Below are positions 36,475 to 51,432 of a stretch of DNA of 64,000 nucleotides, piece after piece. Numbering within the stretch: position 1 is the first letter of the stretch; each line of letters begins with the position of its first letter. Both the position numbers and the translations under genes were made by a program. The stretch is from Aminobacter aminovorans (GTDB lineage: Bacteria > Pseudomonadota > Alphaproteobacteria > Rhizobiales > Rhizobiaceae): the NCBI RefSeq assembly GCF_900445235.1, contig NZ_UFSM01000004.1:137449-201448 (forward strand), read 5' to 3'. The notes beneath the pieces were generated by a model that saw only the letters and a list, made by a program, of their open reading frames with translations, was not told where the DNA came from and ran no database searches.

Positions 36475-36704
36475 CAAGGACCTCTCTTGCATGTACAATC
36501 GGCTTGGGCGCGATTGCTGGTCGAAGCGTAATACTCGTCGATTGTCGTCAGGTATTGCTCACGCCTTGCAATAGACCCCCATCTTGATCTGCGCAGCGCG
36601 GAAAGTCGACGCACCCCGGGGGACATTTTGCCCCATGTGGCGGACCCGCGCAGGCGTCTTGTGGCGCGCCCATTATCCATACAATAAGTCCATACATCCA
36701 TAGA

Positions 36705-36733
36705 TTGACCGGAATGTATGTGAATTATATGTA
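36705..36733 (+). promoter_or_regulatory. AT-rich promoter region with CATACAT/ATGTATG repeat, between cydA and the DUF983 gene
   Basis: TTGACC (36705-36710) and TATGTA (36728-36733) with 17-bp spacing make a weak promoter toward the DUF983 gene. CATACAT (36691-36697) and ATGTATG (36714-36720) are inverted repeats around its -35. The 357-bp spacer 36475-36831 holds no gene. I looked for an FNR box for cydA but saw only half-sites (TTGAT at 36573). Confidence 0.35.
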
Positions 36734-36831
36734 TATTGCGCCTTGCCGGCAAGGGTGAAGCGCCCTATGTGGGGCGTAGGGCACGCTGTGGCGTTGCCCG
36801 CGTGTTTGCGACCCGCAAAGAGGAGACGCGC

Positions 36832-37278
36832 ATGTCGCGGTCCAGATATACGGCGGAGGGATTTACCCCCACCGACAACCCGATGAAGACGGGCATCCAG
36901 GGGCTCTGCCCGCGCTGCCAGATGGGGCACCTGTTTCAGGGCTTCCTGAAGCTGGCGCCGCGTTGCGAGGTTTGTGGGCTCGACTATTCCTTCGCCGATC
37001 CCGCTGACGGCCCCGCCTTCTTCGCCATGACCATTGCCGCAGTGCCGGCGCTCGCCTTCGGCGCCTGGTTCCAGACGGCCTTCGGCTTGCCGCTATGGGT
37101 GCACCTGTTCATCACCTTGCCGCTGACCGTACTCAGCTGCATGGCGCTGTTGCGGCCGCTCAAGGGCTGGCTGGTGTGTTCGCAGTTTTTCCACAAGGCG
37201 GAGGAAGGCTCGATCGATTTCGATTGGCACGCCAAGGCCAAGGGACAGCAGCAGAACGGCAAGACGCCAGCCGCCTGA
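36832..37278 (+). CDS. DUF983 zinc-ribbon membrane protein
   Basis: 148 residues from the ATG at 36832 (AAAGAGGAGA upstream). A CPRC...CEVC zinc ribbon (GLCPRCQMGHLF, APRCEVCGLDY) is followed by two membrane helices (about residues 63-105), the DUF983 architecture. Members often occur near respiratory oxidase genes in alphaproteobacteria. Here it is divergent from cydAB, which agrees, but its molecular role is not established. Confidence 0.85.
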   Translation: MSRSRYTAEGFTPTDNPMKTGIQGLCPRCQMGHLFQGFLKLAPRCEVCGLDYSFADPADGPAFFAMTIAAVPALAFGAWFQTAFGLPLWVHLFITLPLTVLSCMALLRPLKGWLVCSQFFHKAEEGSIDFDWHAKAKGQQQNGKTPAA

Positions 37279-37323
37279 TCGACGCGCATTGTTTCCTGCG
37301 ATCAAGTCGCGCATGGAAACAGC

Positions 37324-37357
37324 AAAAAAGCCATGGGCAGGGGCGGCCCATGGCTTT
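37324..37357. terminator. Bidirectional intrinsic terminator
   Basis: Perfect 12-bp stem AAAGCCATGGGC / GCCCATGGCTTT with a 7-nt loop. AAAAAA precedes the stem on the plus strand, so the minus-strand transcript (DUF1344 gene) ends in a U-run. It lies between two convergent genes. Confidence 0.8.
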
Positions 37358-37399
37358 GCGGCAGCTTCAGGCTGCCCTGTGGCGGTGGGGAGGTATCGA

Positions 37400-37636
37400 T
37401 CAGCGCAGGACGCTGGTGACCTTGTCTCCTTCGTCATTGAGCTCGATCGAGACCTTTTCGCCGATCTGGACGTTCGGAAGACCGACGTCACGCGGCACGG
37501 TGAAGCTGTGGCCGTTCTCGAGGGTGATGACGCGAGATGCCGGGCTGAACTTCATGACCACGCCGTTGTTCGACGAGGCGAGCGCTGCGCCCGACATGAA
37601 GGCGAGGGATGCGGCAGCCAGGATGATCTTCTTCAT
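37400..37636 (-). CDS. DUF1344 small exported protein
   Basis: 78 residues from the ATG at 37636. The signal peptide MKKIILAAASLAFMSGAALA is followed by a small beta-rich domain (VVMKFSPASRVITLENGHSF, VGLPNVQIGEKVSIELNDEG), matching DUF1344. The function is unknown. Its upstream region carries copy A of the GAAAC promoter element shared with other genes in this window. Confidence 0.85.
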   Translation of the reverse strand: MKKIILAAASLAFMSGAALASSNNGVVMKFSPASRVITLENGHSFTVPRDVGLPNVQIGEKVSIELNDEGDKVTSVLR

Positions 37637-37698
37637 TTGATAGTTTCCTTTCTTGGGAGGTGACGCCAACATCGGCGACGCCCTATTTCTAGCGGCGT

Positions 37699-37750
37699 CC
37701 CGTTTCGAGCTGTTTTCAGAATATGGCGATAAGTGTTTCGTTTGTTTCAT
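37699..37750 (-). promoter_or_regulatory. GAAAC-array promoter element, copy A (DUF1344 gene)
   Basis: On the minus strand the 52-bp element has GAAAC at positions 3 and 12, GAAAAC at 34 and CGAAAC at 44-49. TAGAAA follows exactly 10 nt after the last GAAAC. It lies about 63 bp upstream of the DUF1344 start. Copies B, C and D have the same layout. Confidence 0.75.
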
Positions 37751-38406
37751 TCCTTGGCGGAAAGCGAAACATGGCGCTGCTTGCTAGCATGACGGTGCCA
37801 CTTGCGGCCTGAAGACTCGAGTTTCCAACCGTTGCCTGCATGACAGCAGGCCCTCGAGGTCCCCCCAGGGACGCGGTCCGATGATTGTGGTCCGGACTGT
37901 TGCTGATTCCACATCGAGCACGCCAATGAGATGGGCACATCGGAATTGCATTGATCCAGCATCATGTTGGCAGCCCCGCGCTGACCACGGACCGAAGAAT
38001 GTACCCGGGGTGATCTCAGACGACGGCGGCAATTACTAGAGGACGGATCAGAAAGAGCAGGTGTTCATCACCGCACTTGGCGGCCGACCTCCCATGCGCA
38101 AAGCCGCTTGACTGGGACGGCCTCGTTACCGAAGTCCTGACCCTAGGAGCAGCTACCGGTTCCCGGGTGTTCTTCGTACCGAGGATGCCTGTCGCCGTGG
38201 AGTTGATAGCGACGCTTGCCGTGTTGGCCGATCGCTGCCGATGCCATGTCGGGAGCAGCGCCTTTTTACAATGTCTACTTGGCCGGAGCGGATGCGCTGG
38301 ATATATACCCGTTAGTCGATGTTAGCGGATAGGTTTTCGACTCGCCTTCGGATAGCTGATTGGTCGGAGGTGCGCATGCAAGGGATTTCAAAAGAGTAGC
38401 TGCTGA
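37751..38406. other. Intergenic region without a convincing gene
   Basis: About 650 bp. Short frames exist, the longest 38077-38325 (+), but they lack ribosome-binding sites and recognisable motifs. Composition becomes more AT-rich towards the glycosyltransferase gene, consistent with a boundary of acquired DNA. Confidence 0.45.
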
Positions 38407-41400
38407 ATGAATGCGACCACGGGGACAACAGAGTTCTCCACGCGATATGGGCCTGTGCTCATCAAGACACACGACCGTCCAATTGCAGATTCGTTATCCA
38501 AGTACGGCGAATGGGCGCAGATCGAGATCGACTTCCTTGCACAGTTCATTTCGCCGGGCAGCCTGGTCCTTGATGTTGGCGGCCATGTCGGACTTCACGC
38601 TCGTGCATTTGCCAGCCTTAGCAATGATGTGAAGGTCCATTCCTTTGAAGCGCAGCCGCAATTGGCGAGCCTGTTGTCGCGCAATGCTGAACAATTCGAT
38701 GGGAAGATCAGTGTTCACGCGGTAGCCATCGGCGAGAAAGCCGGGCGAGCATTTATCGGCAGATTGCCTGACGATCGAAACGTGAATGCAGGGGCGCAAT
38801 CGGTCAGAACTGTTGCCGGCTCAAATGACATCGCCGTGGAAGTCAGAACGATTGACGACTATCAGTTCGACCAGGTTGCCTTCATCAAGATGGATGTCGA
38901 AGGCTATGAGTCGCTGGCGCTGAAAGGCGCCTTCAAGACGATAAGTCGCGACAAACCGGCAATCTTCTGCGAAGTGAACTCGATTGGGCATGCTTTCAGC
39001 TTGTTTGATGTGATGTCCGCGCACGACTACGTCTCGTACTTTGTATCAACGTCCGCCTACAATACGCAAAACCGCAATGGTGATCCGGAGAACATATTCG
39101 GCGTTGCACACGAGACTGCGCTGTTGTTTCTGCCGGCAGATCATCAAGTCCCGTCGCAATGTCGCGCCAGCGTGTGCAAGAGGGTGGATGGCATCGATGA
39201 GCTGGTGCCGCACTTCGTTGCTGCTCCGCGCTATGGCGACGATACGGACCACGATCGGAACTGGGTTGCCCTCAATGAAGAACTGGCCGTTGTAAAGCGT
39301 GCGCTTGCCGAAGCCAGGGCCGACGCAAAGTCCCGGCATGCCGATGATGCTGACCGTGACCGCAAGTTGGTCGCTCTGAATGAAGAGCAGGCGGTTGCAA
39401 AGCGGGCGCTGACCGAAGCCAAAGCTGCGGCCGCACTCCGTTATGCGGATGATGCGGACCCAGACCGGCCCCTTATTGAACAGCTGGCGCTTGTACAGCG
39501 CGCGCTGGCCGAGGCCGAGGCCACTGCATCCAGGTTTCAGGCGGAAGCTGCTAAACACCGAAGCGAAATCGCGCGGCTCAATGAGGCAGCCAGCCTGTAT
39601 CGCATTCGCCTTGACCGCCTCTCTGAATATATTTCGGACGGACAGCTGGCCGCACGTCGGCGAAGTGCACTAGGAACTCTGGCGCGCAAGTTCGGACGTT
39701 CGGAACTGGCGCAGATCTGTCGAACTCTGGTCAAGTCAGGGCTGTTTGACCGAGAGTGGTACAAGGACAGCTATCCTGACGTCGGGGCCTCCCGGCACGA
39801 GCCGGTGGTCCACTACGTGCTCTTTGGCGCCTATGAAGGGCGCGATCCATGCAAGGGCTTTGATACCTCCTACTACCTTGAAAACAATGCGGACATCCGC
39901 AATTGGGGCGGAAACCCGCTGCTGCATTACATCGAGCGTGGCGAGAAGGAGGGCAGGTGGCCGAACGAAAACTTCGATCCAGCATCCTATCTCAATGCAA
40001 ATCCGAATGCGGACAGGAGGAAGATGCTGCTAAGCCAGCATCTTCAGGGCGCCGGTCGCGACGACCATTTCAAGCCGTCATTTCGCCCGGCAGCTCCAGA
40101 CTGGGGTGATTTCGAGGCGTTGGCCGCTCATATCGCTGCTCCCGTCGCGTCGCCTGCCACGGTTGATGTGATTGTTCCTGTCTATCGCGGCTACGCCGAC
40201 ACGCTGGCTTGCATCATGTCGGTGCTGACGAGCACGAACAGGACCGATCTCGAGCTGATCGTTGTCGATGATGCCTCGCCGGAGCCCGAGCTGTCGCGCG
40301 CGCTCGATCGGCTTGCCGGGATGGGCCTCATCACGCTGCTGCGAAACGAGAAGAACCTGGGTTTTGTCGCGACAGTGAACCGCGGCATCGCACTGCACCC
40401 CGATCGTGACGTGCTGTTGTTGAACAGCGATACCCAGGTCTTCAACGACTGGCTCGACCGGCTTAAAGATCACGTCACGGGTGGCGAGGTGGCGACTGTG
40501 ACGCCGTTCACCAACAACGGCACGATCTGCAGCTATCCGAAATTCTGCAAGGACAATCCGGGCGAACTGGATGTTCCCTTTGCCAAGATCGACGAGTATG
40601 CGACTGCGGCAAACCGGGGCACTGCAGTCGAGGTGCCGACGGGTGTCGGCTTCTGCATGTATGTGACGCGCGCAACATTCAGGAAGATCGGCGATTTCGA
40701 CGTCAAGACATTTGGCCGCGGCTATGGCGAGGAGAATGATTTCTGCGTTCGGGCCGAGGCGCAGAACATGCGCAACTTGCACGCGCTCGATGTCTTTGTC
40801 TTTCATTCAGGCGAGACGTCATTCAGCTCGGGGGCTGCACAGGCCAAGAAGGACGGCTACCGCGCGCTGGTCAAGAAGCACCCTCAATACCCCGGCGCTG
40901 TCGCGCGTTACCTCTCTGCCGATCCCGCCAAAGCTGCGCGTGCACGGCTGGACATCGCCCGTCTCGTCGAGGGTCGACTCGCTCGTGTCGTGCTTTGCTT
41001 TACCCACGGCTGGGGTGGCGGCATCGATCGCTACCTTGCTGACCGCGCGGCTGCCGGCATGTCGAGCGGAGGGAAACGCTGCTTTGTGCCGTGCCCGTGC
41101 GGGATGGTACAGCGTTCAGAATCACCAATGTCGCATCGCAGGGCGATTTCGCAAATCTCGAACCCTTTGCGGTGGAAGGCAGCCTTTCGACGCTTACCGA
41201 GCAACTCCGGGGCATCGTTTCGCATATCGAGGTCCACAGCACGGTTCGCTGGTCGAGCAAGATCCTCGACCTGATCCCGGATCTGGCCCGCGAATTGGGA
41301 TCGACCTATGACGTCATGTTGCACGACTATGTGCCCGTTTGCCCGCAGGTAACCCTTATCGACAGCTCGGGGCACTATTGCGGTGAAGCGGGCGTCGAGC

Positions 41401-42116
41401 AGTGCAACCGGTGCATCGGCGAAAATCCCAAATCTGCCAACACCATTCACCCCGACTGGCAATCTACTGATATGACGGACATTGATGGCTGGCGGCGGCG
41501 ATACAGTGATTTTGTCGCAGGCGCAAATGAAGTGGTCGCGCCAAGCCGGGACGTCATTCTGAGAATGGGCCGCTACCATCCCGGTCGCCAAATCGTCCTG
41601 CGCCCGCACGCCGAACTGGACAGGCCTTTTGCACGCAGGGTCGCGCTTCCCTACGAGGGCGGAGTGCTGAAAGTCGTGACCATCGGTGCCATCGGTGATC
41701 ACAAGGGAGCCCGCATCCTGGAAGCCTGCATCGACGATGCTCGAAGCCGCCAGCTTCCTATCGCGTTTTCGATCGTCGGTTTCACGAGTAGCCCCAAGCT
41801 TAATGGCTCCTCGGAGATCCAGATCACGGGCGGCTACAAAGAGGATGAGGTATTCGACGCGCTAGACGATGTGAAGGCTCATGTCGCCCTGCTGCCCTCC
41901 GTTTGGCCGGAGACCTATTCCTATACGCTGTCCATAGCGCTCGAGGCAGGTTATCCGGTCTGCACGTTCGACATGGGAGCCCCTGCCGAGCGCCTGCGCG
42001 CCTTGGGCACGGGATTGCTGCTGCCGCTAGAGACGATGTCGGACCCGGCGAGTATTAATGACATGCTTCTGGATCAGTTTAATCAGACCAAAAACGGGTT
42101 CCTGCGAGCGTCGTGA
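38407..42116 (+). pseudogene. Giant FkbM methyltransferase/glycosyltransferase protein, one-base deletion
   Basis: The first frame (to about 41087) has an FkbM methyltransferase domain (residues 50-215: LVLDVGGHVGLHA, FIKMDVEGYE), three coiled-coil repeats (278-379) and two rhizobial-type modules (FDREWYKDSYPDVGASRH, FDTSYYLENNADIRNWGG). A GT2 domain follows from about 586 (VDVIVPVYRGY, VVDDASPEPE, LLNSDTQVF). At CFTHGWGGGIDRYLAD, a GT4-like start, the frame breaks near 41085-41090 and resumes as VPVRDGTAFRITNVASQGDF, with a GT-B tail (VAPSRDVILRMGRYHPG, LLPSVWPETYSYTLSIALE) ending at 42116. Adding one base restores about 1236 residues. GC is lower than in neighbouring genes. Probably makes a surface polysaccharide. 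Confidence 0.82.
39238..39543 (+). repeat. Three tandem about 35-codon coiled-coil repeats in the glycosyltransferase
   Basis: Residues 278-312, 313-347 and 348-379 align as D-D-x-D-x-D-R, then x-x-E-x-x-x-V-x-R-A-L-x-E-A. The third is three codons shorter. DNA copies have diverged but are clearly related. They link the FkbM and glycosyltransferase parts. Confidence 0.75.
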
Positions 42117-43015
42117 CTTGGCCCATTCGGCACTGTTGTACCCGAAGCGATGCCAACATTTTTATGGGTTCGGACCCTAGAACGCCGCGGCTTTCGGACG
42201 GAGCGTACGCGGTCGGCGGTTCGCAAATGTGCTGAAATCATCGGATTGACGATGTGGGGGTCGGTCAGCAGCGCCATATGCCCGGCATCGGCAACCATGG
42301 CGAGCCGTGCATCGGGAACGGCTTCGGCCACCATTTCGGTGACACGCAAGCTGGCGACAGGGCTGTCCAATGCCATTATCGCAAGTGTCGGGCAATCGAG
42401 CCTGCGGCAGCGTCTTGCCGGCCAGGCTGCTGCAAGTGCTGCGGCAAGATCCCGACCCACTTGATCCGCATGATGCTCAAGCTCTTGCCGGAGGCTTTCG
42501 CTGGTCCTGCGCCAGGCCCCTGCGCCGTGCCAGAAATCGATATAGGCACGCATGCCGGCTGTCGGGTTGGGGCTACTTGCTGTTGTCGTCAGTTTTGCAG
42601 CCATGCTGGCAAGCTCGGCGAACAACGCCAGGTCGGTCGGAGCCCCGTCACGCAGCAGATGGAACAGTGCGGGCTCGATCAGCGTCAGGCTTTTGACCAG
42701 TTCGGGCCGCAACAGCGCGATTTCCAACGCCACCGCCGCACCATGCCCATGTCCGACAAGGTGCATCGGCTCCGCCATCGCGCCAATAACGACGCCGGCA
42801 ACATCGGGGATGTTGCCGGCCGTCCGATTGCTGCCGTAACGGGACAGATCAGGTGCGATCAGCCGGTGGCGGCCGCGCAGGTAGTCCGCGGTGCCTTGCC
42901 ACAGCCTGCCTGTACTCGCAGAGCCGTGCAGCGCGAGTACGGTGTTGCTGAGTACAGGCTGGCAGATTGGGCCCGGGTCGGACTGCCAGCTAGCGCTATT
43001 CCACATCGTGTTCAT
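42083..43015 (-). CDS. Alpha/beta hydrolase-like protein lacking the nucleophile serine
   Basis: 310 residues from the ATG at 43015. The alpha/beta hydrolase fold is clear (VLALHGSASTGRLWQGTADY, LIAPDLSRYG, a final His in ADAGHMALLTDPHIV). The nucleophile elbow reads LVGHGHGAA: the usual G-x-S-x-G is G-H-G-H-G, so the catalytic Ser is missing. About 45 extra C-terminal residues follow the normal end, and the gene overlaps the 3' end of the convergent glycosyltransferase by 34 bp. Its start overlaps the DUF1127 gene by 20 bp. It may be a pseudo-enzyme or a decaying gene. Confidence 0.7.
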   Translation of the reverse strand: MNTMWNSASWQSDPGPICQPVLSNTVLALHGSASTGRLWQGTADYLRGRHRLIAPDLSRYGSNRTAGNIPDVAGVVIGAMAEPMHLVGHGHGAAVALEIALLRPELVKSLTLIEPALFHLLRDGAPTDLALFAELASMAAKLTTTASSPNPTAGMRAYIDFWHGAGAWRRTSESLRQELEHHADQVGRDLAAALAAAWPARRCRRLDCPTLAIMALDSPVASLRVTEMVAEAVPDARLAMVADAGHMALLTDPHIVNPMISAHLRTADRVRSVRKPRRSRVRTHKNVGIASGTTVPNGPSHDARRNPFLV

Positions 43016-43235
43016 GGCCGCGCTTCCGGTCACCGGATGGATCGCTGACAAGCGACTGGATTTCAGAGCGGGCCACGCCGATGTCCTTGAGCAGGTAGTC
43101 GTCAAGTTCCCCAAGGTTCCACACCGCGCGGCGATGGGCGCGACGCAGCCAGAATGCCCGATGGGCGGCCGCGATCCGCGAAGCCAGCGACGAAACGAGG
43201 CCGGCGGCGGGTGATCGGATGGTCAGGGTAGTCAT
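42996..43235 (-). CDS. DUF1127 small protein
   Basis: 79 residues. The C-terminal part (LGELDDYLLKDIGVARSEIQSLV) is the DUF1127 (YjiS-like) signature. Rhizobia have many such Arg-rich small proteins, some of which affect phosphate, stress or RNA-related phenotypes. Its stop lies within the start region of the following hydrolase gene. Copy B of the GAAAC promoter element is 54 bp upstream. Confidence 0.87.
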   Translation of the reverse strand: MTTLTIRSPAAGLVSSLASRIAAAHRAFWLRRAHRRAVWNLGELDDYLLKDIGVARSEIQSLVSDPSGDRKRGHEHDVE

Positions 43236-43288
43236 GTCCTGGAACTCCTTTGAGCTGTGCCAAGTCGGCTATGCTGGTCTAGACCTCT

Positions 43289-43340
43289 CCTGTTTCGGGC
43301 ATGTTCCCGGCATCAGGGAGAAGTGTTTCGTTTGTTTCAG
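43289..43340 (-). promoter_or_regulatory. GAAAC-array promoter element, copy B (DUF1127 gene)
   Basis: On the minus strand the element has GAAAC at positions 3 and 12, GGAAC at 34 and CGAAAC at 44-49, the same spacing as copy A. TAGACC follows 10 nt later. The first 18 nt are identical to copy A except the first base pair or two. Confidence 0.75.
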
Positions 43341-43349
43341 TGGCGATGA

Positions 43350-43730
43350 TCAGTCGATCTGCGGGTTGCCGCAGGGCACATGACGGCTGCCCGGGCGAGC
43401 AGGGCCGCCAACCGCCATCGAAGCGGCCGACGAAAGCCCGATCGAGCCGTGCCCCGAGATCGAGCCGTTCCCATTGTCGGCGGTTGCAGACAGTGGCAGG
43501 ACACTGAACAGGCGGCGCGAGGTGAGCCGCCCTGGTGTCGCGCCCAGCGACACGCGTGAATAGACGTCGGTTCGCTTCTTCACGATCCGCGAGGACGGGG
43601 CGGTGAAAGGCTCGTGCAGTGACGACATCATCCCGGCGGGCGGGAACTGAAAGGTGGAAGCGATGTCGAAAGCATGCGCCATGTCGAAGGTCGGCAGAAC
43701 AGCACAAAAGGCTAGAATGGTCGATCGCAT
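43350..43730 (-). CDS. Exported hypothetical protein
   Basis: 126 residues from the ATG at 43730 with AAGGAG upstream. A signal peptide (MRSTILAFCAVLPTFDMAHA) is followed by a Ser/Gly/Pro-rich region with no recognised domain (VSLGATPGRLTSRRLF, NGNGSISGHGSIGLSSAAS). The product is not recognised. Its upstream region has copy C of the GAAAC element, which supports it being a real, regulated gene. Confidence 0.6.
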   Translation of the reverse strand: MRSTILAFCAVLPTFDMAHAFDIASTFQFPPAGMMSSLHEPFTAPSSRIVKKRTDVYSRVSLGATPGRLTSRRLFSVLPLSATADNGNGSISGHGSIGLSSAASMAVGGPARPGSRHVPCGNPQID

Positions 43731-43887
43731 CTCATGTCTCCTTGGGGACGTTCGCGTTCTCGACTTTGCCGGGCGCCTCGCCTGCTGAAGGGCCGCCTAT
43801 CAACATCCCGTGGGTTTTTGATAGACTGGCTGCTTCCGCATGCCGGGAGCCGACCCAACGAAGTCGACATGGCGGAAGTTAGCTCAG

Positions 43888-43939
43888 GCCTGTTTCGGCG
43901 CTTTTTCTGAGCCTGGGAAAAAGGTTTCGTTTGTTCGCG
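43888..43939 (-). promoter_or_regulatory. GAAAC-array promoter element, copy C (exported hypothetical gene)
   Basis: On the minus strand: GAAC at position 4, GAAAC at 12, GAAAAA at 33 and CGAAAC at 43-48, then TAACTT exactly 10 nt after the last GAAAC. It lies 158 bp upstream of the exported-protein gene. A TTCGCGC-GATT-GCGCGAA hairpin (43934-43951) abuts it. Confidence 0.7.
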
Positions 43940-43973
43940 CGATTGCGCGAAAATGGCCATCAGACCGAAGCAA

Positions 43974-44022
43974 TTGAAACAAAGTGAGGGAGATTCGACC
44001 TCATACCGAAACAGAAGGCTTG
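43974..44022 (+). promoter_or_regulatory. GAAAC-type promoter, copy D (hybrid kinase gene)
   Basis: On the plus strand TTGAAACAAA at 43974-43983 and CCGAAACAG at 44006-44014 are 32 bp apart, matching the 33-bp interval in copies A and B. TAATCA begins exactly 10 nt after the second GAAAC. It lies about 65 bp upstream of the kinase start and is divergent from copy C. Confidence 0.65.
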
Positions 44023-44083
44023 TAATCATCCGCCGCGCTCACGCCGCCGTGAAGTGGCCGCGCTCAGGATTGAGGAGACGATC

Positions 44084-47038
44084 ATGCGAGCTGGTGATCC
44101 GGCCGTGAATCTTCGGACGGGCTACGCGCTTTTCGACAGCGACGACATGCTTGTCGACGCCAACGCCGAGATTTTTGGCGGCATTGTCCAGCCCCGCGAT
44201 GAGCAGCCGCCGATGAATGTCATCGCAGCCATTGCCCGGGTTCTTCGTCAGTTCTCCAGCTTCGATGGTCTCGCAGTTGAACAGAGCGACGATTTCGTGC
44301 GGCGCGCGGTGCTGCGCTGGCGGCAGCCGAATGTGTCGCCGATCGAGGCGCAAACCGTCGACGGCGCCTGGAAACTGCTGACAAGCCACCCCCGCCTTGG
44401 CGCCGGCATCGCACTGATCAGCACCGACATCACCGAAATGAAGCTGGCCCAGATCGCGCATCTCAGCAGCGCCGAGATCTTCCGCTGCATCACCGACAGC
44501 CACCCGCTGCCGGTCTGGGTCGTCGACGAACAAAGCAGGCAGATCCTTTATGAGAGCCTCGATGGGTCGCACCTGCTTGGCCGCAAATGGCAGCCGCAAC
44601 AGCAACAGCTCCTCACCGACCATTTCGTGAACCCGGACGAATTCGATCAGGCGTGTCGCCGCGTCCACGGCAACGACATCCTGCGCGACTGCGAGATCCA
44701 GATGCAGCGCGAGGATGGGTCACACGTCTGGTGCTCGACAAACTGGCGGCGAAGCGTCTTTCGCGCGCGTCCGTCGCTGGTCATCGGCGTGCTCGACATC
44801 ACCGAGCGCAAGAAGGCCGAGGCTGCGGAGCGCGAGGCGACGTCGCTGATGCAACGGGTGCTTGACGCATGCCCCTCGCCGACCCGCATGTCGACGATCG
44901 AGGGCGAAACGCTGTACTGCAACCCCGCCAGCCGCGAACTCTATGGCGATCGTCCTCACATCGCAGACTACTATGTCGACCCCGGCGACAGGGAGACATT
45001 GGTGCGTACTCTGCTGGACAAGGGCAGCATCGACGACTTTCGCGTGCGGCAGTACTGTTCCGACGACACCATCTTCTGGGGATCGCTCTCTGCACGGCTG
45101 ATCGACTTCCAGGGCAAGAAGGTGATCGTCTCCAACGCAACGAACATCAACGGCATGATCATGGCGCAGCAACAGACGCGCCAGGCAAACAACCGTCTGA
45201 CAGACGCGATCGAGTCGCTGGCCGAAGGCTTCGCCCTTTACGACAAGGACGATTGTCTGGTGCTGGCCAACTGCCAGTACCGGAAAATGCATGCCATTTG
45301 CGCAGATGTGCTGGTCCCGGGGGTGAACTGGTTCGACTTCCTTCGCGTGACCGCAGAACGCAGCCAGTTCCGCGTTCCCGGCGACAAGATCGACGAGTGG
45401 CTGGCCGAGCGGGCCCGGGATCGGCGCGAATACCGGCAGCAGGAGTTCCAGCATGCAGACGGTGGCTGGTTCTTCGTTTCGAACAGTCCGACGCGAGAGG
45501 GCGGCTTCGTCGTCACCCGGCTTGACATCACCGAGCGCAAGCGGGCTGAACTGGCGGCCAAGGAAGCCGACGACCTGGTGCGCCGGGTCCTGGAGGCCAG
45601 CCCCGTCAGCATCCAGATGACGCGCGCCCATGACGGCAAGCAGCTATACAGCAGCCCGGCGACGACGAGGCTGCTTGGCGACGTCGCCGGCGCGCTGGAT
45701 CACTTCGCCACTGCGGGTTACCGCGACGAATATGTCGAACGGCTGCTGCGCGATGGCGCCGTCGACGAATTCGAAACCCAGCTCAGGCGCAGCGACGGCC
45801 AGACATTCTGGTGCTCGATTTCGTCTCGCCTGATCGATTTCCACGGCGAGCAGGTCATCGTTTCCCACACATATGACCTGAGCGACCGCATCGAGCTGCA
45901 GAAGCAACTGGAACATCAGCGTGAGAAGCTGCACCAGAACGAGAAGCTGTCGGCGCTCGGCGGGTTGCTCGCCGGTGTTGCCCATGAGCTGAACAATCCA
46001 CTGTCGGTGGTGCTCGGCATGTCGCTGACGCTGAAAGAGACATCGGTCGATCCCAAGACGATCGAGCGGGCGGACAAGATCAGCAAGGCGGCGGAGCGCT
46101 GCGCCCGTATCGTCAAGACTTTCCTGGCGATGGCCAGGCAACAGCCGACGCGCGCCATGAATGTGTCGATAGACGAGGTTGTTTCCGCGGCACTCGAAGT
46201 GGTCAACTATTCGATCCGCTCTTCCGATATCAAGCTCATGCTCGATCTCGAACCGGATCTGCCGGCGATCTGGGGCGATCCCGATCAGCTCAGTCAGGTG
46301 CTGATCAATCTGCTGGTCAACGCCGAGCACGCGCTTCACCATTGGGAGGGGCCAAGAAAGATACTGGTTGCCACGGGGCGGCACCCGGAATGCGGCAATA
46401 TCACCCTCAGCGTCACCGACACCGGCCCCGGGATTTCCGAAGAAATCCTGCCCCGCATCTTCGAGCCGTTCTTCACGACCAAGGAGGTCGGCGCCGGCAC
46501 GGGCATCGGCCTGTCCTTCTGCCATCGCATCATTCAATCGCACCAGGGAACGATCGAGGTCGAGACCGTGCCTGGCGGAGGTTCAACCTTCGTCGTCTCG
46601 CTGCCGGCTTCCGATCGACTCGTCGAAACATCGGGGCCGTCCGACGAAGAGCCATCGAGCTCGGCGGGCCTGTCGTGCCTGGTGGTGGATGACGAAAGGG
46701 AGGTTGCCGACCTGATCGCCGAAGTCCTGATGCGCGACGGCTTCACTGTCGTCGTCGCGCGGTCGGGCGAAGAGGCGTTGACGCAGCTGAGGAAACGGAC
46801 ATTTGCCGTCATTCTGAGCGACTTGAAAATGCCGAGCATGGATGGCCGGCGCCTGTACAACTACATCGCCGACTACCATCCGGCCGAGGTCGATAGGCTC
46901 GCTTTCCTGACCGGCGACACGATCAGCCCGGATGCGCAGATCTTCCTGCGCGCCACAAAGCGGCCCTATCTGGAAAAGCCGGTGAAGCCGATCGAATTGC
47001 GCCGGTTTGTTTCAGGGCTGGTCGTCAGGCAGGCGTGA
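44084..47038 (+). CDS. Soluble multi-PAS hybrid sensor histidine kinase
   Basis: 984 residues from the ATG at 44084 (GAGGAG upstream). About five PAS-like domains (residues about 10-110, 130-250, 255-370, 375-490, 500-610) precede the HisKA domain with H634 in [16 protein letters not shown]. The HATPase has [32 protein letters not shown] and [11 protein letters not shown]-terminal receiver has the phospho-Asp D913 in [12 protein letters not shown]. No membrane segment, so it senses a cytoplasmic signal such as redox state or a small ligand. The OmpR-type regulator follows 65 bp later and is its likely partner. Confidence 0.92.
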
Positions 47039-47103
47039 ACGATGCCGATTGATTTGCCGCCCTCGCCGAAGAGGGGTACTTTCCCAGTTGAGGTGAGGAC
47101 CCG

Positions 47104-47808
47104 GTGACTGCCAATTCGCAGATCGTCGTTTGCGATGACGAGCCAGATGTCCGCGACATGGTCGCGGAGTATCTGGAGCGCCACGGCTATGCCGTGACGA
47201 CTGCCGATGCCGGGCCGGCCTTGCGCCAGATCGTCGAGAGCCAACCCGTCGATGTCGTGATCCTCGACATCCGCATGCCCGGCGAAGACGGCCTCTCTCT
47301 CGCGCGCTACCTGCGTGAGCATTCCGAGGTCGCGATCATCATGCTGACGGGCTCGGCGGAGATCATCGACCGGGTCGTCGGCCTCGAGATCGGTGCCGAC
47401 GACTACATCGGTAAGCCGGTCGATTTGCGCGAACTGCTGGCACGGGTGAAGGCGGTTCTGCGCAGGACAACGGGCCGGGACCGTGTTTCAGAAAATGCTC
47501 TCGGGCCCCAGAGCGCCCAGTTTGGGAGCTGTCGGCTGGACCTGGATTCGCGCAAGCTGTTCGACGCCGACGGCGGGGACATAGCGATCACCCCGATGGA
47601 GTTCCGGCTGCTCAAGGTGTTCGCCGAGAACCGGGGACGGATACTCAACCGTGACCAGTTGCTCGAACTTGCGCATGACCGCGGCTGGGACCCGTTCGAC
47701 CGCAGCATCGACATCCGGATTTCGCGATTGCGCAAGAAAATCGAGGCTGATCCTTCCAAGCCTGAGGTGATCAAGACCATTCGAGGGGTCGGATATCTCT
47801 ATGCCTAG
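47104..47808 (+). CDS. OmpR family response regulator (GTG start)
   Basis: 234 residues. The receiver domain has D10/D11/D12-type acidic residues (VVCDDEPDVRDMV), phospho-Asp D55 in VVILDIRMPGEDG and the Lys of YIGKPVDLRELLARV. The C-terminal winged helix (ITPMEFRLLKVFAENRGRIL, ISRLRKKIEADPSKPEVIKT) is OmpR/PhoB type. It follows the multi-PAS kinase and probably receives phosphate from it. OmpR-type proteins bind direct repeats spaced about 10-11 bp, like the GAAAC arrays upstream of nearby genes. That link is inference. Confidence 0.92.
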   Translation: MTANSQIVVCDDEPDVRDMVAEYLERHGYAVTTADAGPALRQIVESQPVDVVILDIRMPGEDGLSLARYLREHSEVAIIMLTGSAEIIDRVVGLEIGADDYIGKPVDLRELLARVKAVLRRTTGRDRVSENALGPQSAQFGSCRLDLDSRKLFDADGGDIAITPMEFRLLKVFAENRGRILNRDQLLELAHDRGWDPFDRSIDIRISRLRKKIEADPSKPEVIKTIRGVGYLYA

Positions 47809-47946
47809 CCTGGTACCCGGCGTTGCGCTTGCATCGACGGCCGCTGCGTAAGCGACGAGACTTGCTTGGCGTATCCATCAAAATGCCTTACTGGGAGGCT
47901 CCTTGGGCAAATCAGCCCCAGAGACCACGGACCGCGCCACCGCCTG

Positions 47947-48336
47947 ATGCAGCAGACCAAGGCATATAGATCGCTTGCGACCGGCATGTTGCCGGCCATG
48001 CTGCTATGCTTGGCGGTGATTCTGGCCATGGTCGGCGGATCGCTGGTCGACAGCATGCCTGTGGCATCCGCTGCCACCGAACCCGTTCCAGGCCAGATGG
48101 ACGTTCGCGGACGGCACACCGGTCCCGCCATTCCCGAGCGGACATTCGTCGTCGTCGATTGGCGAAGCGCCAAGGCGCTGCCGCAGCATGATGACGGCAA
48201 GTCGGCGTTGATCCCGTCCAGGGTAGACACGCCCGAAGCGGCCATTTCCAGGCCACGCTCCGAGCTGGTCCTGCATGCGGATATTCAATCTTCGACGCTG
48301 ATCTACAGCGCGCGCGCGCCACCGGCATTCTCCTGA
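47947..48336 (+). CDS. Hypothetical protein with one N-terminal membrane helix
   Basis: 129 residues from the ATG at 47947 (MQQTKAYRSLATGMLPAMLL). A strong hydrophobic helix or signal anchor occupies residues 14-38. The remainder (RHTGPAIPERTFVVVDWRSA, RPRSELVLHADIQSSTLIYS) is not recognised. The frame is open from 47866, but the region before 47947 has no coding features. It sits between the response regulator and secDF on the same strand. Confidence 0.5.
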   Translation: MQQTKAYRSLATGMLPAMLLCLAVILAMVGGSLVDSMPVASAATEPVPGQMDVRGRHTGPAIPERTFVVVDWRSAKALPQHDDGKSALIPSRVDTPEAAISRPRSELVLHADIQSSTLIYSARAPPAFS

Positions 48337-48442
48337 AAATCCATGAATGATGCGGGCTCAATGGGGCATCGCATCACCAGGACTAACAACCATCTTTCGC
48401 GCGCCATGACGCCGCGGCGATGGTTTTGCAGGATCAGATCAT

Positions 48443-50977
48443 ATGCGGACCTCCCGATGGGTGGTGGTGACATACACCATCATCATTTTGGCCGGCATCA
48501 TTGCCGCGCTTCCCAACGCCCTCACCGCCAAGCAACTGGCAGCATTGCCAAGCTGGTTCCCGAAACAGCAGGTCACGCTCGGCCTCGACCTCCAGGGCGG
48601 CTCGCACCTGGTGCTGGAAGTCGATGCGGCGGCACTCAAGACCGACCGCCTGCGCTCGCTGCTCGATGATGTGCGCGGCGCCTTGCGCAAGGAGCGCATC
48701 AACGCTTCGTCGGCGCGTCTTGCCGGCGATGCCATTGTCGTCAACATTGCCGACGACGCGCAGCGCGCGACAGCCTTGGCAACGCTGCAGTCACTGGCCG
48801 TTCCGGTCAGCGGCGGCCTCGGACTTGGCGGCGGCAAGCCGGACATCGAGGTCACCACTGCCGACAAGCAGATCAAGGTCGTGCTGACCGATGCTGGCCA
48901 GCGCGACAAGCTCGACGCTGCACTCCAGCAGAGTCTCGAGATCGTGCGCCAGCGCGTCGACCAGGTCGGCGTCGCCGAGCCGACGATCCAGCGCGTCGGC
49001 AGCGACCGGATGCTGGTTCAGCTGCCGGGCCTGCAGGATCCGACCCGTTTGCGCGAACTGCTCGGCAGCACTGCCAAGATGACATTCCACATGGTGGCCA
49101 ACGTCGCCAATGGCGAGCCGCTTCCGCGCGGCGTCACCATGCTGCCGGACGCCAAGTCCGGCGCACAATATCCGGTCGAGGACCGCGTCGCGCTCGATGG
49201 CGCACGCCTCACCGATGCGCGCGCCGGCTTCGACCAGCGTACTCAGGAACCGCTTGTTTCCTTCCGCTTCGACAGCGTCGGCGCACGTCAGTTCGCCGAG
49301 ATCACCGCCGCCAATGTCGGCAAACCTTTCGCCATCGTGCTCGACGGCAAGGTGCTGTCGGCGCCAAACATCCGCGAGCCGATCACCGGCGGTTCCGGCC
49401 AGATCAGCGGCAGCTTCAGCGTTGAAGAGACGGTGACGCTGTCGGCCCTTCTGCGCGCCGGCGCGCTGCCGGCACCGCTGACCGTCATCGAGGAGCGCAC
49501 CGTCGGTCCCGACCTTGGTGGCGACGTCATCAAGATGGGCATCTACACCGGCGTTGCCGGCTTCGTTGCGGTCGTCCTGTTCATGGTCGCGCTTTATGGC
49601 ACCTGGGGCATGATCGCGAATTTCGCGCTGTTGCTGCATCTGATCCTGACCTTCGGCGTCCTGACCCTGATCGGCGGCACTCTGACCCTGCCCGGCATCG
49701 CCGGCATCATCCTGGGCATCGGCTTCGGCGTCGACGCCAACATCCTGATCAACGAACGCATCAGGGAAGAATCGAAGAAGGGGCTCAGCGCCTTTGCCGC
49801 CTTGGACAATGGCTTCAAGCGCGCCTATTCGACAATTGTCGATGCCAACGTGACGTCGCTCATCGCCACCGGCCTGCTGTTCATGTTCGGCTCCGGCCCG
49901 GTGCGCGGCTTCGCCATCACCATGTTCCTGGGCACCTGCCTGTCGATGTTCACCGCCGTTTCGGTGACGCGCATCCTGATGGCCGCGGTTGTGCGCCGCA
50001 AGCGGCTGAAGACGATCACGATCGAACCGCTGATCCGCTTCTTCCCGGAAAAGACCTCGATCTCGTTCATGAAGGCCCGCTACCTCGGCATCGGCATGTC
50101 GATCTTCCTGTCGCTGGCCTCCATCGGCCTGTTCTTCAAGCCGGGCCTCAACTACGGAATCGACTTCAAGGGCGGCATCCAGGTCGAGATCGCGACGTCG
50201 ACGCCGGCCGATCTGGCACAGCTGCGCAGCACGCTGGGCGGCTTGAACATTGGCGAGGTGGCGCTGCAGCAGATCGGCAGCGACGGCAATGTGCTCATCC
50301 GGGTCCAGCGCCAGGAGGGTGGCGAAGCGGCACAGACCGCTGCCGTCGACACCATCAAGGCCGCCGTGCAGAAGCTCGATCCAAGCGTGAAGTTCGAACG
50401 CACCGAAGTGGTGGGTCCGAAGGTCAGCGGCGAGTTGGCGCAGTCCGGTATCCTGGCCGTGGTGCTGGCCGCTCTTGCCATGCTCGTCTACATCTGGTGG
50501 CGCTTCGAGTGGAATTTCGCCATCGGCGCCATCGCCACGCTTGTGCTGGATACCACCAAGATGGTGGGCTTCTTTGCGCTGTTCGGGCTGGACTTCAACC
50601 TGACGGCGATTGCTGCGCTGTTGACCATCATCGGCTATTCGGTGAACGACAAGGTGGTCGTCTACGACCGCATGCGTGAGAACCTGCGCCTGTACAAGAA
50701 GATGCCGCTGCGCGAGATCATCGACATGAGCATCAACCAGGTGTTCGCGCGCTGTATCTACACCTCCGTCGCCATCCTGCTGTCGATGCTGCCGATGGCG
50801 ATCTGGGGTGGCAGTGCCGTCGAGAACTTCGCCATTCCGATGGTGTTCGGCGTGTTCATCGCGACGACCTCGTCGATCTTCATCGCGGCGCCGATCCTGT
50901 TGCTGCTCGGTGATTGGTGGCAGCACCGCAGTGCAGGCCGCGAGCCTTCGACTGGAGCGGTAACGACCAAGGCCTGA
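48443..50977 (+). CDS. secDF: Protein translocase SecDF (fused SecD-SecF)
   Basis: 844 residues. The SecD half has LGLDLQGGSHLVLEVD, the periplasmic P1 domain, EERTVGPDLGGDVIKMGIYTG and the TM4 segment GFGVDANILINERIREE. The SecF half starts at about residue 535 with GLNYGIDFKGGIQVEIATST and has YSVNDKVVVYDRMRENL. Twelve membrane segments in total. With SecYEG it uses the proton gradient to help pull proteins across the membrane. The fusion is common in Rhizobiales. yajC is not adjacent. Confidence 0.93.
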   Translation: MRTSRWVVVTYTIIILAGIIAALPNALTAKQLAALPSWFPKQQVTLGLDLQGGSHLVLEVDAAALKTDRLRSLLDDVRGALRKERINASSARLAGDAIVVNIADDAQRATALATLQSLAVPVSGGLGLGGGKPDIEVTTADKQIKVVLTDAGQRDKLDAALQQSLEIVRQRVDQVGVAEPTIQRVGSDRMLVQLPGLQDPTRLRELLGSTAKMTFHMVANVANGEPLPRGVTMLPDAKSGAQYPVEDRVALDGARLTDARAGFDQRTQEPLVSFRFDSVGARQFAEITAANVGKPFAIVLDGKVLSAPNIREPITGGSGQISGSFSVEETVTLSALLRAGALPAPLTVIEERTVGPDLGGDVIKMGIYTGVAGFVAVVLFMVALYGTWGMIANFALLLHLILTFGVLTLIGGTLTLPGIAGIILGIGFGVDANILINERIREESKKGLSAFAALDNGFKRAYSTIVDANVTSLIATGLLFMFGSGPVRGFAITMFLGTCLSMFTAVSVTRILMAAVVRRKRLKTITIEPLIRFFPEKTSISFMKARYLGIGMSIFLSLASIGLFFKPGLNYGIDFKGGIQVEIATSTPADLAQLRSTLGGLNIGEVALQQIGSDGNVLIRVQRQEGGEAAQTAAVDTIKAAVQKLDPSVKFERTEVVGPKVSGELAQSGILAVVLAALAMLVYIWWRFEWNFAIGAIATLVLDTTKMVGFFALFGLDFNLTAIAALLTIIGYSVNDKVVVYDRMRENLRLYKKMPLREIIDMSINQVFARCIYTSVAILLSMLPMAIWGGSAVENFAIPMVFGVFIATTSSIFIAAPILLLLGDWWQHRSAGREPSTGAVTTKA

Positions 50978-50985
50978 CTGTCCCT

Positions 50986-51014
50986 GTCGGAGCCGTCCTG
51001 GCGGCGGCTCCGAC
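50986..51014. terminator. Hairpin between secDF and the DUF1488 gene
   Basis: GTCGGAGCCG (50986-50995) and CGGCTCCGAC (51005-51014) form a perfect 10-bp stem with a 9-nt loop in the 70-bp gap between convergent genes. The flanking T-run is weak. Confidence 0.6.
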
Positions 51015-51047
51015 AAAGGCCGACCTCAGGCCGGCCGGCGCGACGCG

Positions 51048-51311
51048 TCACCTGAAGTCGTGTGCGGTCAGCACATACAAACGCTTGCGCCCGTGGGAAT
51101 AGACTTCACGAGCGACGTCCTGGATCGAAATGCGCGCCGCATCGAATGCGGCAAGATATCGTGTTTCACTGTCGACCGCCGGTTGGCTGGCTTTGAGCGC
51201 CTGAACCTCGACGAAGAACGGAACTTCGAACGTGCCATCGTAGCCCAGGAAACGTATGGCTTTTCTCGCGGCGTCATAGCTGCGGCTTCTGTTTGGAAAG
51301 GCGAGTGTCAT
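51048..51311 (-). CDS. DUF1488 family protein
   Basis: 87 residues from the ATG at 51311. The compact fold motifs MTLAFPNRSRSYDAARKAIR, FLGYDGTFEVPFFVEVQAL and YSHGRKRLYVLTAHDF match DUF1488. The function is unknown. The frame is open to 51377, but the added residues are not conserved-looking. It converges on secDF. Confidence 0.8.
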   Translation of the reverse strand: MTLAFPNRSRSYDAARKAIRFLGYDGTFEVPFFVEVQALKASQPAVDSETRYLAAFDAARISIQDVAREVYSHGRKRLYVLTAHDFR

Positions 51312-51432
51312 CGTTTGCTCCAGTGCAGGACAGTCGGGAAGATGAGGTTGCCGAAGTTCGGCGATCCACTTAGGCACTCAGTGCCAGGTTTGCCGCATAA
51401 CTTGCGCTCGCTGCGATGATGCGCACCCAAGG

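Follow-up and report, generated by a model that had tools for sequence, protein, structure and literature searches.

The window analysed here is a stretch of 64 kb which forms the end part of a 201-kb contig of Aminobacter aminovorans, the genome of which comprises 5.89 Mb in 5 contigs. It possesses a gene pair for a multi-PAS hybrid histidine kinase and an OmpR-family response regulator and, on the other strand, genes for three small proteins and an alpha/beta hydrolase (Table 1). Four tandem arrays of GAAAC-type half-sites, named A to D, are situated upstream of these genes. On the basis of sequence comparison, the arrays are proposed to be composite operator-promoters of one autoregulated two-component system formed by the adjacent hybrid kinase and OmpR-type regulator, a reading to which we give a probability of about 0.82. 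Very likely they mark a real and conserved regulon with the adjacent regulator as partner, working by a mechanism which is set out below as a proposal. No published description of the array motif or of the kinase-regulator pair was found in the open PubMed Central (PMC) literature. The analysis offers a precise, testable operator, together with a partner protein and a residue that may set specificity, for a seemingly undescribed two-component system across Alphaproteobacteria.

The refined array reads GAAAC-N4-GAAAC-N16/17-GAAA-N7-GAAAC-N10-TA, with a spacer of 27 or 28 nt (N27 or N28) between the second and the last GAAAC. The initial annotation had reported four such elements, and all were found in their places; the full spans of A to D were redetermined, and D, which had been ended at 44022, runs slightly further, as its TA falls at 44023-44024. 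The proposed distance of 10 nt between the last GAAAC and TA proved exact in all four copies. Exact GAAAC at four spots in A to C had also been proposed, of which the second and the last hold. The third is at best of GAAA type, reading GAAAA in A and C, GGAAC in B and GACCT in D, with exact GAAAC in none of the four, and the first is exact in A and B only (CGAAC in C, GAAGC in D). The GAAA-type half-site lies 11 bp before the last GAAAC in A to C, and little is left of it in D. For the first pair of repeats, the proposed spacing of about 11 bp was found to be 9 bp, start to start. No other array of this kind was found in the 64-kb window.

Table 1. Arrays and genes at the locus (N27 and N28 denote the spacer between the second and the last GAAAC)
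Feature	Coordinates	Strand	Remarks
Array A	37690-37748	-	N28; predicted -10 TAGAAA; predicted transcription start ~37679; precedes DUF1344-like gene
Array B	43280-43338	-	N28; precedes DUF1127 gene and hydrolase gene
Array C	43880-43937	-	N27; degenerate first half-site; precedes gene of small exported-looking protein
Array D	43967-44024	+	N27; predicted -10 TAATCA; predicted transcription start ~44035; precedes kinase-regulator pair
Small DUF1344-like protein, signal-like N-terminus, 78 aa	37400-37636	-	19.1 bits, below Pfam cut-off of 23.1
Alpha/beta hydrolase	42083-43015	-	overlaps end of DUF1127 gene; start codon uncertain
DUF1127 protein, 79 aa	42996-43235	-	36.1 bits, cut-off 23.3
Small protein, signal-like N-terminus, 126 aa	43350-43730	-	encoded downstream of array C
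Multi-PAS hybrid histidine kinase, 984 aa from ATG	44084-47038	+	PAS_7, PAS_9, HisKA, HATPase_c, receiver
OmpR-family response regulator, 234 aa, proposed binder	47104-47808	+	recognition helix DRSIDIRISRLRKK with Ile204

The pattern GAAAC-N26..29-CGAAAC-N10-TA showed five matches in the 5.89-Mb genome, four of them being A to D within 6.3 kb, and none in a backward-read control. Specificity across species came from including the first half-site: this strict pattern gave 43 sites in 29 of 394 family genomes, with a single site in the backward control. When a three-half-site pattern with up to two mismatches was scanned in the own genome, A to D were recovered (D with one mismatch, C with two) along with two extra sites. 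One of these has a single mismatch and precedes a BBE-type FAD oxidase gene on contig C1, and the other has two mismatches; the backward control gave one site in one scan and none in another. The target set is hence not purely local, since a one-mismatch array sits on another contig. In genome G165 the array of an FAD oxidase 84.9% identical over 445 aa lies beside the regulator, and in the present genome it is unlinked to it. Spacers other than 27 and 28 were covered from 26 to 29 in family genomes and fetched loci and from 22 to 33 in 30 stretches with 30 regulator matches. The latter scan revealed 44 arrays, 27 at N28, 15 at N27, one at 26 and one at 33, which is array A read again; the reversed and shuffled sequence of those 30 stretches gave none.

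The half-sites were found to be more conserved than the bases around them. The G of the third half-site carries 1.8 and 2.0 bits (39 and 42 sites), though it lies outside the search pattern. Within the genus, 11 of 320 positions in half-sites and TA had changed, against 179 of 1183 among the remaining bases, summed over the BLAST-aligned parts of five loci (L247, L206, L103, L081 and L082; L104 and L162, near-copies of L206 and L081, were excluded), and in array A none of 105 such positions changed in five same-genus comparisons. As the initial annotation held, the copies are not recent duplications, because the spacers diverge and the half-sites are kept. Some further candidates were discarded: GAAAC repeats of another layout at L075, L076 and L077 (G019:C8, G121:C1:5930000 and G191:C25) did not match the refined motif, and L074, L078, L079, L080, L099 and L100 showed only weak forms without the first or third half-site.

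An exact-match scan of genome contigs with spacers 27 and 28 covered at least 116 stretches and gave at least 122 array sites, at least 119 of them unique. Among the 119 unique sites listed, 97 belong to Alphaproteobacteria, 6 to unassigned Pseudomonadota, 5 to Gammaproteobacteria and 11 to other phyla, and for 70, including a Streptococcus match, the stretch contains a homologue of the kinase or of the regulator. The array-bearing genera include Aminobacter, Mesorhizobium, Nitratireductor, Ruegeria and Shimia, along with Kiloniellaceae and others.

The presence of the array follows that of the adjacent regulator. In a family sample the regulator (E <= 1e-70) was present in 26 of 199 genomes, and all 14 strict-array genomes possess it. 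Twelve regulator genomes are without a strict array; two of them (G064 and G147) have one-mismatch arrays near the regulator, and the other ten have no array in the regulator stretch except a weak one with spacer 26 in G079. A class sample of 385 genomes, the own one included, contained 5 array genomes and 20 regulator genomes with an overlap of 5/5, and the control gave 0. In G587, G680 and G728 the array is no more than about 5 kb from the regulator, and in G577 the two are on different contigs. The array is upstream of the kinase in 14 loci, namely the window, seven others with a regulator at least 75% identical and six at 56-59%. In the regulator tree, every member of two clades, one of 8 which includes the window's regulator and one of 7, has an array in its stretch, directly upstream of the kinase at 14 of the 15 loci; the arrays of L255 are unassigned to a kinase. 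No array belongs to any of the six members of a paralogue clade, although L089_16136 shares its stretch with an array-bearing neighbour. At L088, L092, L094, L097, L098 and L253, a paralogous regulator with Leu at the equivalent of position 204 lies by a related PAS kinase, and no GAAAC array was found in the stretch.

A single residue of the recognition helix was found to go with the array. Ile204 is present in 17 of 30 regulators, 16 of which have an array in the stretch; the array of one of them (L262) is without the first half-site. The remaining 13 possess Leu, Val or Thr at this position, and for 2 of them the stretch contains an array, namely L089_16136 (shared) and L256 (weak); the Fisher test counted L089_16136 as without its own array (1/13), and the Fisher values of this and of the spacer comparison ignore relatedness. 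When loci were picked solely by the DNA pattern, Ile204 was present in 36 of their 38 regulators, the exceptions being Cypionkella L193 and a chance match in Streptococcus, L201. The equivalent residue is Ala in FxkR9 and Val in E. coli OmpR, and the equivalent Val of PhoB contacts DNA. Ile204 is hence put forward as a candidate specificity residue.

The position of start codons in relatives bears on the role of TA. The matches listed include 35 unique N27 kinase promoters, and in 23 of these, many from Ruegeria-like and related records, the first in-frame ATG or GTG of a long frame begins precisely 12 nt beyond TA; ATG at this distance was found in 1 of 80 other sites. With TA at -12/-11, a start codon at TA+12 would coincide with +1 and give a leaderless mRNA, and these start codons support TA as part of a -10 box. 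The ATG of the window kinase lies 61 nt after TA. For the A. aminovorans kinase WP_157097244.1, the annotated start falls within the array, upstream of the predicted -10 (L247:11905-12001; window ~43988-44084), so it is probably too early.

The spacer was found to differ between promoter kinds. Among the matches listed, kinase promoters showed 35 N27 and 3 N28 and other classified genes 1 N27 and 31 N28, after three sites (L222, L228 and L229) with a small gene first were shifted by hand from kinase to other (previously 35:6 for the kinase), and with 49 unclassified sites (18 N27, 31 N28) omitted. Counted by genus-level label among the same matches, the split was 21 N27 to 3 N28 for the kinase and 1 N27 to 13 N28 for others, and the kinase-upstream array was N27 at 14/14 fetched loci. 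Tentatively, this could represent a one-base spacer code in which N27 drives the own kinase, often leaderless, and N28 marks most targets, so that feedback and output react differently to one and the same activated regulator; we regard it as possible and rather doubtful. A change from 27 to 28 would rotate the two upstream half-sites through roughly one tenth of a turn of the helix. Two promoters speak against a strict code: that of the DUF1127 gene has N28 in the window but N27 in A. aminovorans and A. ciceronei, and that of the exported-protein gene has N27 in the window but N28 in G051, G143 and others. The 27/28 split provides a clean way to learn how spacing tunes autoregulation.

Co-occurrence, synteny, the recognition helix, half-site conservation and the kinase starts together support the earlier suggestion that the four promoters form one OmpR-type class and that the adjacent regulator is its likely partner. 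In the proposed mechanism, the multi-PAS hybrid kinase would activate the regulator by phosphotransfer, and the phosphorylated regulator would bind four GAAAC-type half-sites on roughly one face of the DNA. The upstream two are spaced 9 bp; the other two follow two helical turns later with a spacing of 11 bp and stop 10 bp short of the predicted -10. The downstream pair would stand in for a -35 element. PhoB and OmpR are known for such class II activation, and A to D show its layout, with tandem direct half-sites about 10 nt before the -10; the scans of relatives presupposed that distance. The regulator would thereby drive its own operon and the genes for the DUF1344-like protein, DUF1127 protein and hydrolase, and exported-looking protein, and probably the BBE-type FAD oxidase on the other contig. 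We infer activation instead of repression, and likewise the signal.

A number of observations weigh against this reading. The loose pattern of the initial annotation matched in 68 of 199 family genomes, and when read backwards as a control it also matched in many, so that, being unspecific across genomes, it is unfit for use alone; of the concern that the motif might be no commoner than chance, the strict form lies well above its control, and the loose form does not escape it across genomes. Among the 119 listed sites, 16 fall outside Alphaproteobacteria and unassigned Pseudomonadota and resemble chance, and for 49 the stretch of at most 8 kb contains no kinase (E < 1e-40) and no regulator (E < 1e-20). 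L258 has an Ile204 regulator without an array, the kinase array of L087 retains only two half-sites, and array D is variable at its first half-site among members of the genus (two species, 2 of 21 positions). Clade-mates among the compared genomes are not independent. Some relatives show an AGGA-like string in or after the TA hexamer, where a Shine-Dalgarno reading is possible.

Other explanations of the arrays were weighed. Chance, or recent duplication of a single promoter, could be thought of as A and B have GAAACAAACGAAACACTT in common, yet the spacers differ while half-sites persist, arrays recur in many genera and the reversed and shuffled controls are empty, which makes this the least credible of all. 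The GAAAC repeats could also be promoter elements of an alternative sigma factor, such as an extracytoplasmic function (ECF) general-stress factor, whose promoters have GGAAC at -35 and CGTT at -10 with N16/17 between. GAAAC is close to GGAAC, and some targets in relatives (OsmC, DUF1127) look like stress genes. However, the half-sites are four and phased, a gap of 10 nt before TA is less than a -35 element would need, an exact GAAAC in A to D is never followed by CGTT at 16 or 17 nt, and the kinase start codons fit TA as -10, so this is very improbable. A somewhat less remote alternative, still unlikely, is that the arrays are operators through which the adjacent regulator represses or modulates, with RNA polymerase using promoters elsewhere. 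OmpR-family proteins are capable of repression, but the rigid 10-nt gap to the TA hexamer and the start codons at TA+12 described above argue against this.

It would be similarly surprising if another OmpR-family regulator (ChvI/BvrR, FxkR or a paralogue) bound the arrays and the neighbouring pair were merely its target. Either view makes the pair a target, since the kinase promoters bear the array, and OmpR-type half-sites look alike. In the parts available of the respective papers, the C1 OmpR site of E. coli ompC contains TTTACATTTTGAAAC, with a GAAAC (PMC2586830), and the K-box of FxkR is GTTACA-N4-GTTACA (PMC7888657). Against it, the adjacent regulator is present in all strict-array genomes of both samples and the arrays track its Ile204. 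The hFixL-FxkR system of Rhizobium etli and R. leguminosarum is the closest described one in layout, sharing a hybrid PAS kinase, an OmpR-family regulator and tandem half-sites upstream of the target promoter. FxkR9 is 44% identical to the window regulator over the whole length, hFixL9 is 26% identical to the window kinase over 545 aa, and FxkR9 possesses Ala in the recognition helix in place of Ile. The K-box, with half-sites GTTACA at 10 bp, lies at -77 to -62 in two fixK9 promoters (read here using starts from the available parts of PMC7888657), whereas the window has GAAACA at 9 bp with the upstream pair at about -69 to -56 from the predicted start. The fixK9-fxkR9 stretch has no array of the window kind and no downstream pair by eye, and no fixK was found among the array-bearing genes listed. 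Membership of the FxkR regulon was therefore rejected, as the arrays read GAAAC-N4-GAAAC in place of the K-box (PMC7888657), and so was an FxkR orthologue, given the identity, recognition helix, half-site, position and targets, as far as the parts available of PMC7888657 and PMC4999443 describe them.

In comparison with E. coli OmpR, the window regulator belongs to the same domain family and its best NCBIfam model is OmpR (224.8 bits, below the cut-off of 331); the recognition helix differs (Val-Gln in OmpR, Ile-Arg here) as do the targets, and the window kinase is a PAS-module hybrid with a receiver, unlike the E. coli system. ChvG/ChvI (ExoS/ChvI, BvrS/BvrR) also has an OmpR-family regulator of Alphaproteobacteria, but the genome distribution of the array tracks a different regulator. 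SMb21440 is presumably a DUF1344-type protein. ChvI binding upstream of SMb21440 is mentioned, on earlier work, in the part available of PMC3687685. The ChvI box was the first candidate because of DUF1344 and was rejected, since the S. meliloti motif N-GCC-N8-GCC, cited in the part available of PMC9731502, is unlike a GAAAC-type array (the motifs were compared without a scan). The CenR inverted repeat, as given in the passages available, did not match the array, and the passages on BvrR boxes contain no motif matching it.

Genes after the arrays, recognised by Pfam or by similarity to window genes, include the kinase, DUF1127, DUF1344-like, alpha/beta hydrolase and OsmC genes; also present are BBE oxidase, PALP-glutaredoxin fusion, homocysteine S-methyltransferase, RTX-type calcium-binding protein and globin genes. 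Such a set may hint at thiol or reactive-compound physiology. The array lies upstream of the PALP-glutaredoxin fusion at L109 (by Pfam), L148 and L185 (by similarity), and in G019, G121 and G191, of one genus, the array of this fusion is more than 500 kb from the regulator or on another contig. Arrays with GACAT as third half-site were found at L136, L143, L139, L184 and L218, followed by homocysteine S-methyltransferase (L136 by Pfam, L143 by reading), DUF1127-like (L139, by reading) and GNAT (L184, by Pfam) genes; possibly these form a sister operator type. At L137, L140, L166 and L203, in three Rhizobium/Pararhizobium records and one unassigned proteobacterium, arrays precede genes for RTX-type calcium-binding proteins, and L137, L140 and L203 also encode a regulator 49-53% identical.

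In the window itself, the regulator shows the domains PF00072 (104.4 bits) and PF00486 (Trans_reg_C winged helix, 83.4 bits), which place it in the OmpR/PhoB family, and the phospho-acceptor Asp, acidic pair and Lys (D11, D12, D55 and K104) are invariant in 17 aligned regulators. The names of its homologues are generic, apart from one incomplete UniRef label 'Regulatory protein Vir' (best 120 of 4411). Six Aminobacter records contain plasmid-borne copies of the kinase with 94.5-94.7% identity. For the 126-aa protein, no Pfam or NCBIfam family was found at E 0.01; partial matches of 33-45% identity occur in five relatives (including L081, L082, L085 and L086), with arrays at four of the loci examined. 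The DUF1127 gene stands as a proposed target, with the correction that its operon presumably also takes in the alpha/beta hydrolase. In the hydrolase, the nucleophile motif reads GHGHG in place of GHSxG, so the serine is lost. Among 33 parsed hydrolase homologues (of 47 matches) the nucleophile residue is Ser in 28, Gly in 4 (window, L247, L083 and L211) and Cys in 1, and the Gly type may possibly represent a pseudo-enzyme branch.

The gene order in A. aminovorans pAA01 is cydB, cydA-type subunit, DUF983, DUF1344 (the annotated counterpart of the 78-aa protein), hydrolase, DUF1127, hypothetical, kinase, regulator, hypothetical and secD. The window is collinear with it over 36501-51356 except for about 4.4 kb (37785-42179) between the DUF1344-like gene and the hydrolase, which showed no alignment to pAA01 and alters the C-terminal end of the hydrolase. 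Within this segment, a large open reading frame at 38407-41274 resembles, as judged by reading, a methyltransferase-glycosyltransferase fusion, and a second one at 41091-42116 overlaps it in another frame.

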